Source: Gallaecimonas kandeliae | GTDB lineage: Bacteria > Pseudomonadota > Gammaproteobacteria > Enterobacterales > Gallaecimonadaceae | NCBI RefSeq assembly: GCF_030450055.1 | Contig: NZ_CP118480.1 | Span: forward strand, 3,533,501-3,597,500 | Direction of reading: 5' to 3' | Length of the DNA stretch: 64,000 nucleotides | Shown: positions 26,229 through 34,136 of the stretch, piece by piece | How positions within the stretch are numbered: position 1 is the stretch's first letter | Layout: the number at the start of each line of letters is the position of its first letter | Notes under the pieces: generated by a model | What the model was told of the DNA's origin: nothing | Database searches by the model: none | Seen by the model: the letters and a program-made list of their open reading frames with translations, nothing else | Position numbers and translations under genes: made by a program

Positions 26229-26337
26229 GGCGTTCATTTTGACGCTGATGCACTCGCCTTGACAGGTGGCATCGCACGACATTGCTCACATTGCTTCCAG
26301 TTGGAAAAGGCCGGCACCCGCCGGCCTGTTTTTATTT
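26229..26337 (+). ncRNA. ryhB: RyhB iron-responsive small RNA
   Basis: About 109 nt. The core at 26274-26301, with CACGACATTGCTCACATTGC, is identical to the pairing core of Escherichia coli RyhB. A terminator follows: AGGCCGGC ACCC GCCGGCCT (26308-26327) and a T-rich tract. A Fur-box promoter starts it. With Hfq, RyhB represses non-essential iron-protein mRNAs when iron is low. The last bases overlap the stop of the convergent MASE1/GGDEF gene. The 5' end is estimated from the -10 box. Confidence 0.93.
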
Positions 26338-29962: not shown

Positions 29963-32737
29963 ATGGCCACCATCCCCGAAAATCCCCTTATCCTGGTAGA
30001 CGGCTCTTCCTATCTCTACCGCGCCTACTATGCCCCGCCCCACCTGACCAACTCCCAGGGCGAACCTACCGGGGCCATCTACGGCGTGGTCAACATGCTC
30101 AAGAGCCTGCTGCGCCAGTTCAAGCCCACCGAGATGGCGGTGGTGTTCGACGCCAAGGGCAAGACCTTCCGGGATGAGCTGTTCGAACAGTACAAGGCGC
30201 ACAGACCCTCGATGCCCGACGACCTGCGCAGCCAGGTGGCGCCTTTGCACACCCTGGTCAAGGCCATGGGCCTGCCGCTCATCATCATCGAAGGGGTCGA
30301 GGCCGACGACGTCATCGGCACCCTGGCCCGCAAGGCCTCCCAGGAAGGGCGCCCAGTGCTGATCTCCACCGGCGACAAGGATATGGCCCAGCTGGTGGAT
30401 GAGAACGTGACCCTGATCAACACCATGACCAATACGGTGCTGGACCCGGCCGGGGTGGTGGAAAAGTTCGGCGTGGGCCCGGAGCTCATCATCGACTTCC
30501 TGGCCCTGATGGGCGACAAGGTGGACAACATTCCAGGCGTACCCGGGGTTGGCGAAAAGACGGCCCTTGGCCTGCTCCAGGGCCTGGGTGGCATGGACAG
30601 CATCTACCAGAGCCTGGACAAGGTGGCGACCCTGGATTTCCGCGGCGCCAAGACCATGGCCAAGAAGCTGGTGGACAACGAAGAGCAGGCGCGGCTTTCC
30701 TACCTGCTGGCCACCATCAAGACAGACGTGGATCTCAGCGAAGAGCACCTGGATCTGCGCATCAAGGAAGAGGACCGCGACACCCTGGTGGAATGGTACG
30801 GCAAGCTCGAATTCCGCCGCTGGTTGGCCGAGGTGCTGGACGGTAAGACAGCCCCCCAGGCCGAGGCCAAAGGTGAAGCGCCGGCCGCCGCAGAAGAGGA
30901 AATAGCAGACCCCGCCGGCATCGACCGCGACGTCTACCAACTGGTCAATACCGAAGAGGCCCTCCAGGCCTGGATAGCCAAGCTGGAGAAGGCCGAACTC
31001 TTCGCCTTCGACACCGAGACCACGGCCCTGGACTACATGGTGGCCGAGCTGGTGGGCTTCTGCGTGGCCGTCAGCGGCGGCGAGGCGGCCTATATCCCCT
31101 TCGGCCACAGCCTGCTGGACGAGACCCCCCAGTTGCCCCGTGACACCGTCCTCGAAGCCTTCAGGCCGCTGCTGGAAAGCGAGGCGCACAAGAAGGTCGG
31201 CCAGAACCTCAAGTACGACATGAGCGTGCTGGCCAACCACGGCATAGCGCTCAAGGGCATCGCCTTCGACACCATGCTGGAAAGCTATGTGTTCAACTCG
31301 GTCGGCGGCCGCCACGACATGGACAGCCTCTCCCTCAAGTACCTGTCCCACAAGACCATCAGCTTCGAGGACATCGCCGGCAAGGGCGTCAAGCAGCTGA
31401 CCTTCGACCAGGTGGCCATCAAGGAGGCGGCTCTCTATGCCGCCGAGGACGCCGACGTCACCATGCGCCTCCACGAGCACCTCTGGCCGCGCCTGGAAAA
31501 GGAGCCCAGCCTCAAGTCGGTGCTGCTGGACATAGAACTGCCCCTGGTGCCTGTGCTGTCGCGCATGGAGCGCACCGGCGTGCTCATCGATCCCAAGCTG
31601 CTCGGCCAGCAAAGCCTGGAGCTGGCGGAGCGCATCGAGGCCCTGGAGAAGAAGGCCTATGAGCTGGCCGGCGAAGAATTCAACCTCGGCAGCCCCAAGC
31701 AGCTGCAGGCCATCCTCTTCGACAAGATGGTCATCAAGCCCCTGAAGAAGACCCCCACAGGCGTGCCTTCCGTGGCCGAAGAGGTGCTGCAGGAGCTGGC
31801 CCTGGACCATCCCTTGCCCAAGGTGATCATCGAATACCGCGGCCTGGCCAAGCTCAAGTCCACCTACACCGACAAGCTGCCGGCCCTGATCCATCCCAGG
31901 ACAGGCCGTGTCCACACCAGCTACCACCAGGCGGTCACAGCCACAGGCCGGCTGTCCTCCACCGATCCCAACCTGCAGAACATACCGGTGCGCACCGAGG
32001 AAGGGCGGCGCATCCGCCAGGCCTTCATCGCCCCCAAAGGCCGCAAGATCCTGGCCGCCGACTACTCCCAGATAGAGCTGCGCATCATGGCCCACCTCTC
32101 AGGAGACCAGGGCCTGCTGACCGCCTTCGCAGAGGGTAAGGACATCCACGCCGCCACGGCCGCCGAAGTCTTCGGGGTCGCCTTGGCTGCGGTGACCAGC
32201 GAGCAGCGCCGCCGCGCCAAGGCCATCAACTTCGGCCTCATCTACGGCATGTCCGCCTTCGGCCTGGCCCGCCAGCTGGATATCGGCCGGGGCGAGGCCC
32301 AGGGCTACATGGACACCTACTTCGAGCGTTATCCCGGGGTGCTGGACTACATGGAAAAGACCCGCCACAGCGCCGAGGAAAAAGGCTATGTGGAGACCCT
32401 GTTCGGCCGCCGCCTCTACCTGCCCGAGATCAAGGCCCGCAACCAGGCCCGCAAGAAGGCGGCCGAGCGCGCCGCCATCAACGCACCCATGCAGGGCACG
32501 GCCGCCGACATCATCAAGAAGGCGATGCTGGCGGTGGACGCCTGGATCCGCAACGAGGTGGCCGACAAGGTCAGCCTCTTGATGCAGGTACACGACGAAC
32601 TGGTGCTGGAGGTGGACGAGGACTTCGCCGAGGCCGCCGCGGCCAAGGTCGGCGCCCTGATGCAGGGAGCAGCCGAACTGGCGGTGCCCCTGCTGGTGGA
32701 AGCCGGCCTGGGCGCCACCTGGGATGAAGCCCACTGA
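29963..32737 (+). CDS. polA: DNA polymerase I
   Basis: 924 residues from ATG 29963; an upstream GTG at 29921 adds residues not seen in the family. Domains: 5'-3' exonuclease (about 1-300), 3'-5' exonuclease (about 330-520, with D350 in FDTETT, so proofreading looks intact) and polymerase (about 540-924). Motif A is [12 protein letters not shown] (D700), motif B has [15 protein letters not shown] and motif C is VHDELVLEV. It fills gaps in repair and replaces RNA primers. Spot 42 follows at the usual place. Confidence 0.98.
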
Positions 32738-32877
32738 CCGGGTAATTGTAATATTGTTACCAAATGACGCTGTAAGCCGTCTGAAAAGTGGGACAATCTG
32801 GTGATTAACCTGCCGATATGAAAAAAAACTACAAAAAGCGCTTTTAATCTGAGCAGGGGGCCGCTAGACTGGCTCTC

Positions 32878-32977
32878 GTAGGGTACTGAAGACCCTCTCC
32901 TGAGGACGGGTCTTTGTTTCACGTAGTGGATTTAGCTAGATATGGCTGCCTCGCTCAAACGAGCGAGGCATTTTTTT
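32878..32977 (+). ncRNA. spf: Spot 42 small RNA
   Basis: 100 nt starting GTAGGGTAC, with TTTCACGTA and GGATTTAGCT in the middle, as in E. coli Spot 42. A strong terminator ends it: TGCCTCGCTC AAAC GAGCGAGGCA plus seven T. The -10 box is TAGACT (32865-32870). Its place after polA matches enterobacteria. Spot 42 with Hfq represses catabolic genes when glucose is plentiful. I see no clear CRP box upstream. Confidence 0.92.
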
Positions 32978-33109
32978 ATCCGCAGCCCGGCTCCCACCTC
33001 TCATACCCCAAATCCTTGTCCCGCAGGGGCTGACGCTCCATTCCCCGCTCGGCGGAAAAATTTTTAGAGTAAAAACTTCAAATCGGTCAAGAAGTGTTGT
33101 ACCTTGAAG

Positions 33110-33227
33110 TTGCTGCATAACCTCATGGCTTGCTCAGCAAGCCTGTGGTGATTTTCTGCTGACATATTAGCTTCTCCCCCAATAAGCTAATATTTCTGTC
33201 CGGTGGTCTCGACCACCGGTTTTTTTT
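33110..33227 (+). ncRNA. Candidate new small RNA with C-rich loop
   Basis: Three hairpins in a row: GGCTTGC TCA GCAAGCC (33127-33143), a perfect 10-bp stem ATATTAGCTT / AAGCTAATAT around loop CTCCCCCAAT (33164-33193), and a terminator CCGGTGGTC TC GACCACCGG with eight T (33200-33227). No ORF leads into it on this strand and engB is convergent, so it should be its own transcript. The loop CUCCCCC could pair with purine-rich ribosome sites. The promoter is not clear, and the 5' end is a guess. Confidence 0.55.
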
Positions 33228-33250
33228 GCCTGCGATTCAGCACCTTGCAT

Positions 33251-33272
33251 AAAAAAGGCCCCTGTCGGGGCC
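33251..33272 (-). terminator. engB terminator
   Basis: On the minus strand GGCCCC GACA GGGGCC followed by six T, 8 bp after the engB stop. Confidence 0.9.
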
Positions 33273-33279
33273 CTCTTTG

Positions 33280-33933
33280 TCACTCGCTTTCCCCAGCCTC
33301 GGGGTCCGGCGCTTCCTGGTCCACCAGGGACAGCCAGCCAGCCAGGTGCCGGCGCACCTCGTCCAACCCCAGCCCCCTCAGGGCCGAGATGGCCATGACG
33401 GTCACGTCGCCGCCGAAAGCCAGGGCCGCTTCACGACACTGCAGCACAGTGGCCTTGCGGGCCCCGCTCTTGAGCTTGTCGGCCTTGGTCAACAACGCCA
33501 GCACCGGCAGGCCAGATTCCACGGCCCAGTAGATGAGGTCCTGGTCTATCTCCTTGAAGGGATGGCGGATATCCATAAGCACCACGACGCCACGCAGGGA
33601 TTCGCGCTTTTCCAGGTACTCGGACAGGCTGGCCTGCCACTTTTCCTTCAACTCCAGGGGCACCTTGGCAAAGCCGTAGCCGGGCAGATCCACCAGGCAG
33701 TGGCGGGGATCGGCCAGGCTGAACAGGTTGATCAGCTGGGTGCGGCCCGGGGTCTTGGAGGTGCGGGCCAGCTGCTTCTGGCCGGTGATGGCGTTCAGGG
33801 CGCTGGACTTGCCGGCATTGGAACGGCCGGCAAAGGCGATCTCCACCCCTTCATTGCGGGGCAGGTGCCTTATATCGGGCGCAGAAGTGACGAATCTGGC
33901 CTGGCGAAAGTCGATCTCAGGGGTGGGGGTCAT
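33280..33933 (-). CDS. engB: Ribosome biogenesis GTPase EngB (YihA/YsxC)
   Basis: 217 residues from ATG 33933 (GGGAG 5 bp upstream); longer frames to 34287 are not homologous. G1 is [10 protein letters not shown]3 DLPGYG, G4 TKAD, G5 SAL, with the switch-I region KTPGRTQ. This essential GTPase helps to mature the 50S subunit. The order polA-spf-engB is conserved in gammaproteobacteria. The C-terminal tail is acidic ([11 protein letters not shown]). It is divergent from the cytochrome c4 gene. Confidence 0.96.
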
Positions 33934-34136
33934 CAGCTCTCCCGCGCTGTAAACTAAAGACACATCGGAATTTTTGTGTAAACTATCAACAACTCTGGCC
34001 ATAAATTCAGAGCCGCCGGATCCGGCCTTACCGGCAATGGCCAGGGACCGCTCGCAGAATTCTAACATGCCTGGGCGGTCGTGCGATGGGCGCGACACAA
34101 CCGGGCTGAAACTGCACCACAAGATGACGGAACGCC

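Follow-up and report, generated by a model that had tools for sequence, protein, structure and literature searches.

A conserved small RNA gene with a C-rich loop lies beside Spot 42 in the polA-engB gap of Gallaecimonas, Shewanella and their relatives

The gap between polA and engB of Gallaecimonas kandeliae carries, downstream of Spot 42, a gene of a small RNA family that is absent from Rfam and is distributed across Shewanella and its relatives (Table 1; coordinates refer to the window, i.e., the whole 64,000-nt stretch of DNA that was analysed). The most probable reading, which we hold with reasonable confidence, is a stand-alone sRNA gene whose product would act in trans, pairing through its loop with ribosome sites and thereby blocking translation.

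Table 1. Features of the polA-engB gap in the window
Feature	Position	Strand	Details
polA	ends 32737	+	upstream of Spot 42
Spot 42 (spf)	32868-32977	+	RF00021, 39.6 bits vs gathering score 80, E = 4.4e-6
Spot 42 own terminator	32947-32977	+	terminator scan
Palindromic box	33063-33082	+	TTTAGAGTAAAAACTTCAAA; overlaps -35 region
Putative -10	33100-33105	+	TACCTT, 18 nt after CTTCAA; start then ~33112; by-eye alignment
Alternative -10	33116-33121	+	CATAAC, within TGCATAAC (33114-33121); start ~33128
sRNA gene, C-loop element	33110-33227	+	gap polA - Spot 42 - element - engB
sRNA, about 100-116 nt	33112-33227	+	conservation and structure
SL1, variable 5' hairpin	33127-33143	+	GGCTTGC (33127-33133)-TCA-GCAAGCC (33137-33143)
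Linker, single-stranded, conserved	33144-33163	+	U-run TGTGGTGATTTTCTGCTGAC
SL2	33164-33193	+	ATATTAGCTT (33164-33173)-CTCCCCCAAT loop-AAGCTAATAT (33184-33193), perfect 10 bp
SL3, intrinsic terminator	33200-33219, T8 33220-33227	+	CCGGTGGT (33200-33207)-CTCG-ACCACCGG (33212-33219)
engB (ysxC/yihA) GTPase	33280-33936	-	TIGR03598 over cut-off; converges on sRNA

The initial annotation, made by reading the sequence, had described the element as three hairpins with a perfect SL2 stem and a C-rich loop, and this description holds. Its account of the terminator needs one correction: the eight T residues and the spacing of six nt between SL2 and SL3 are as described, but the SL3 stem has 8 bp and not 9, because a ninth pair would force an impossible 2-nt loop. 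SL3 was recovered independently by a consensus terminator scan, and the whole element folds at -43 kcal/mol, compared with a mean of -27.1 in 200 dinucleotide shuffles (z = -4.9, none equal). The SL2 loop is proposed as the targeting loop, and the linker is possibly an Hfq contact or a second seed. No gene runs into the element on its strand, as had been noted at the outset: polA ends well upstream, Spot 42 is terminated by its own hairpin and engB is convergent. A further terminator-like hairpin at 33257-33272 may serve one or both strands.

The palindromic box upstream of the element is kept in all five genomes of the genus and in other families. Of 73 Shewanella/Parashewanella loci, 70 have it, and the remaining three sequences end too early to tell. 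The distance from the box to TACCTT (17-18 nt) equals the spacing in relatives whose -10 is well defined (TATGAT, TATGCT, TATAAT), among them Shewanella, where TATGCT or TATGAT stands 17-18 nt past the box; the most diverged congener has TAGCCT in the position of TACCTT. On this alignment, transcription would probably start at ~33112, near the boundary of 33110 given by the initial annotation. A consensus promoter scan of the window promoter found no good -35, which, together with the position of the box on the -35 region, suggests an activator, and the box is probably the site of a putative dimeric one. Within the genus the box occurs once per genome, at the sRNA promoter; other matches to its pattern are scattered, unrelated singletons and thus do not indicate a regulon. 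Known operators (Fur, CRP, Fnr, CpxR, GacA, HexR, and others) did not fit the box. TTAGAG-N6-CTTTAA has what we take to be the outline of a LuxR/NarL-type site, a lead only.

The element is present at the same place in all five Gallaecimonas genomes sampled (no other genus of the family was among the relatives). All five have exactly the same SL2 stretch TTAGCTTCTCCCCCAATAAGCTAA and linker GTGGTGATTTTCTGCTGA, even a species whose overall identity is only 74%, whereas in the alignment of the five the sequences of SL1 and of the terminator change with their pairing kept. Gaps past the 3' end of engB, for which all 149 genomes examined from the order have a homologue, were collected across many families of this order. 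Spot 42 is followed by a gene built on the same plan clearly in families f6 and f7 and, as judged by eye, in f20 and f25; the shared plan consists of the box TTTAGAGTNNNNACTTTAAA, a spacer of 17-18 nt, a -10, a variable hairpin, the linker, a small TAGCTTCTCCCC hairpin and a terminator. A covariance model (R1) built from 12 sequences matched, at E < 1e-3, 34 of the 296 genomes sampled from the order: 5/5 from the genus, 20 from the Shewanellaceae-type family and 9 from f7. It did not recover the f20 and f25 genes. Six of the f7 genomes carry two copies of the sRNA, kilobases or more apart or on separate contigs. A class-wide search with R1 gave nothing convincing outside the order (best stray match, E = 0.003). 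An initial exact pattern had given no matches in the genome contigs, and an SL2 DNA pattern retrieved 74 records from a collection of named genomes: 73 from Shewanella/Parashewanella, all sharing the SL2 counterpart TTAGCTTCTCCCC-N-AGCTAA and 67 of them with Spot 42 just upstream, and a cyanobacterial one, which we regard as a chance match. In three loci from other f7 genomes, the end of the gap after Spot 42 is formed by a short conserved sequence, TTTTTATGTGTTTTCTCTCA, and a terminator behind it, which is possibly a different small RNA.

Covariation was analysed in 39 distinct Shewanella sequences, from which the structure had also been drawn by hand. The three-hairpin structure paired 94.8% of cells, compared with 26-46% (max 45.6%) when partners were slid, a control that is flattering because the structure was drawn from the tested sequences themselves. 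The covariation score of 0.288 (0.203 in shuffles) was reached in none of 500 shuffles, which ignore relatedness; the more robust part of the result is the count of two-sided changes, seen in 12 pairs (7 of 12 in SL1 and 5 of 9 in SL3). SL2 is almost invariant in Shewanella, so that its pairing is backed by invariance rather than by covariation. The initial annotation had proposed a search for compensatory changes in relatives and had named the loss of the stems there as a ground for rejection; compensatory changes are seen in SL1 and SL3, which covary, and all close relatives examined have retained SL2.

The proposed mechanism begins with an RNA of ~100-116 nt, made from its own promoter and terminator, that would fold into a 5' hairpin, a U-containing single-stranded linker, the C-rich-loop hairpin and the terminator. 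The loop and the 5' arm of SL2 (5'-AGCUUCUCCCCCAAU-3') are predicted to base-pair with G-rich ribosome-binding sites (GGGGGAGAAGCU, AUUGGGGGAGAAG), which would block translation there; Hfq probably assists the pairing, and a signal read at the palindromic box probably governs the sRNA. Action by such loop pairing is likely. Candidate targets were sought by pattern scans of genomes, and whole-RNA duplex energies were set aside, as they ignore folding. As ribosome sites are G-rich anyway, short matches are weak and only long, recurrent ones count.

The best-supported candidates in the window genome are two catabolic genes, hutU in the degradation of histidine and liuA in that of leucine/isovalerate. 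The loop and the stem edge are perfectly complementary to 13 nt at the ribosome site of hutU (TIGR01228), ATTGGGGGAGAAG, and to 12 nt at that of liuA (isovaleryl-CoA dehydrogenase; 4o5m, E = 2.8e-112), compared with at most 7 nt in 23 other window genes. The genus was scanned with GGGGGAGA-N3-9-ATG and the open frames behind the matches were then read. A liuA site of the form GGGGGAGA[A/C]GCTGATG was present in the four congeners read (of the five genus genomes), in two of them with one mismatch, and the hutU match was seen with this pattern in the window genome alone. Matches to GGGGGAGA lying within or antisense to genes (e.g., antisense to a trpB-like start at three loci) were discarded. 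Single start-site matches also fell on a TonB-dependent receptor, on a PLP-dependent Cys/Met enzyme and, in two congeners, on a DUF1302 protein; a common theme of amino-acid catabolism and uptake at the outer membrane is no more than a hint. When 25 Shewanellaceae genomes were searched for GGGGAGAAGC-N1-9-ATG, no gene being preselected, liuA came up in four of them as the sole gene recurring at clear starts, and a directed look at one Shewanellaceae genus (g28) found the liuA site GGGGAGAAG (9-10 nt match) in nine of ten genomes. The match is absent from the readable liuA starts of other Shewanellaceae genera, including Shewanella proper, which has the same loop, and liuA is thus not a universal target. 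With hutU and liuA as its targets, the sRNA would probably restrain amino-acid catabolism. The suggestion of the initial annotation that the loop acts against Shine-Dalgarno sequences gains support from perfect matches of 12-13 nt at real ribosome sites and from the recurrence of liuA in two families.

A real sRNA whose loop mainly binds a protein or decoys other RNAs, the ribosome-site matches being incidental, is the strongest competing explanation, and we consider it unlikely. It would account for a stem and loop of SL2 that are more invariant in Shewanella than a pairing loop alone needs, for a linker (CTTGAGTCTTGTTGAA) as fixed as SL2 and for candidate targets that vary by lineage, but it leaves to chance the exact matches of 12-13 nt at the starts of catabolic genes and the appearance of liuA in more than one family, and the analogue sX13 acts by base pairing (PMC3771888). 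That the element is a structured 3' element, either of Spot 42 readthrough or merely as the convergent terminator of engB, is suggested by its position downstream of spf and facing engB and by the extra hairpin beyond it; this is improbable, given the strong terminator that Spot 42 has of its own, a private conserved promoter box 30-50 nt upstream, conservation of SL1, linker and SL2 far beyond what a terminator needs, and the second copy located elsewhere in six f7 genomes. Neither hairpins arising by chance nor an untranscribed but conserved DNA element is at all likely, in view of the compensatory changes in two hairpins, the T8 terminator and a -10 that keeps its position across families.

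The element fits a known kind of RNA by its place, its plan and its proposed action, and lies outside the Rfam families tested. Neither the window element nor its relatives gave a threshold match in Rfam 15 (sub-threshold matches in the window, e.g., to the Na+ riboswitch and PsrR1, were taken as chance), and the literature searched held no paper reporting the Shewanella gene. The earlier statement that no RNA of this form is described at this place holds as far as Rfam and the searched papers go; such RNAs are, however, described at the polA locus in other bacteria (sX13, ErsA), and VSsrna24, a different RNA, lies downstream of spf in Vibrionaceae. In Xanthomonas, the sX13 gene follows polA; the RNA forms three stem-loops, and its C-rich loops repress mRNAs with GGGG motifs near their start codons (PMC3771888). 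The element resembles sX13 (RF02232, Xanthomonadaceae) in being adjacent to polA and in having three stem-loops; it differs in having one C-rich loop instead of several and in lying beside Spot 42 as well. The single loop is complementary to ribosome sites and may pair there as the loops of sX13 do with G-rich mRNA motifs. The Rfam model of sX13 had no match in 32700-33320 of the window at E up to 10. ErsA of Pseudomonas occupies the polA-engB gap and is organized as SL1, a U-rich single-stranded domain, SL2 and SL3 (PMC8575079). The element shares this location and plan with ErsA (Pseudomon-1, RF01719), whose Rfam model had no match at this locus even at E = 10, but ErsA depends on sigma-22, whereas the element has a different conserved box and coexists with Spot 42; no sigma-22/RpoE-type GAACTT/TCTGA elements were seen by eye in the genus and Shewanella alignments. 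VSsrna24 of Vibrionaceae (~60 nt) lies just downstream of spf and before engB (PMC3295665). The element has the same spf-engB position and does not fit the description of VSsrna24, which is shorter and belongs to Vibrio-type loci that lack the box and the C-loop hairpin. One locus of family f11 with the box and a -10 lacks the C-loop hairpin and carries, beyond the -10, a sequence like VSsrna24 (TTTCTCTCCCGTTGCCCC) that ends in a terminator, which suggests that the two are separate genes. The RNAs ar7 and ar14 (RF02342, RF02344) and anti-hemB (RF02837) are likewise multi-hairpin RNAs with C-rich loops, and ar7 is described as a polA-locus RNA, but their sequences are unlike that of the element, to which they gave no threshold match. 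Spot 42 itself, a terminator-ended regulatory RNA in the same gap and on the same strand, is a separate gene ~135 nt upstream with an unrelated sequence; the RF00021 match covers this neighbour and not the C-loop element. We treat the element as a new RNA family, likened to sX13 and ErsA without a claim of common descent.

The sX13 paper points out that Spot 42 and ar7 map to the polA locus and raises the question of whether such RNAs are encoded there in other bacteria, too (PMC3771888); for the bacteria studied here the answer is yes, and side by side with Spot 42. A strongly conserved, uncurated sRNA present throughout Shewanella thus joins the short list of polA-locus regulators, and it offers named candidate targets (hutU, liuA) and a promoter box unique to its gene. 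Shewanella is a model genus for metal respiration. Among the polA-engB gaps of other gammaproteobacteria, 12 of the 15 that could be folded contain C-rich-loop hairpins, and sub-threshold Rfam matches to the anti-hemB, ar14, sX13 and ErsA models occur in such gaps; two to four C-rich loops (CCTCCCT, CCCCA, TCCCCCC) were observed in 11 loci. The gap may, as a tentative idea that we rate somewhat below an even chance, be an ancient sRNA slot of Gammaproteobacteria, occupied mostly by a C-loop RNA directed against ribosome sites (sX13, ErsA and unnamed others), of which the element would be the Gallaecimonas/Shewanella descendant beside Spot 42. Since R1 had no convincing matches outside the order, the grounds for this idea are solely synteny and loop composition. 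If the idea of a slot is true, the element would have been retained alongside Spot 42, the two polA-locus RNAs would have been neighbours and not alternatives, and catabolism would be divided between Spot 42 and the C-loop RNA.

The 5' half of Spot 42 in the window is strongly diverged, with GTTTCACGTAGTGGATTT kept across the genus, and its score below the gathering score means that annotation pipelines would miss it here. Upstream of spf, at 32747-32761, lies a palindrome-like sequence, TGTAATATTGTTACC, kept in four of five congeners, which resembles a HexR-type operator. A RyhB gene (RF00057, 58.1 bits) was found at 26270-26333. It precedes Spot 42 by 6.5 kb and brings the small RNAs around polA in the window genome to three (RyhB, Spot 42 and the C-loop element); RyhB adjoins spf in Aliivibrio as well (PMC3295665).
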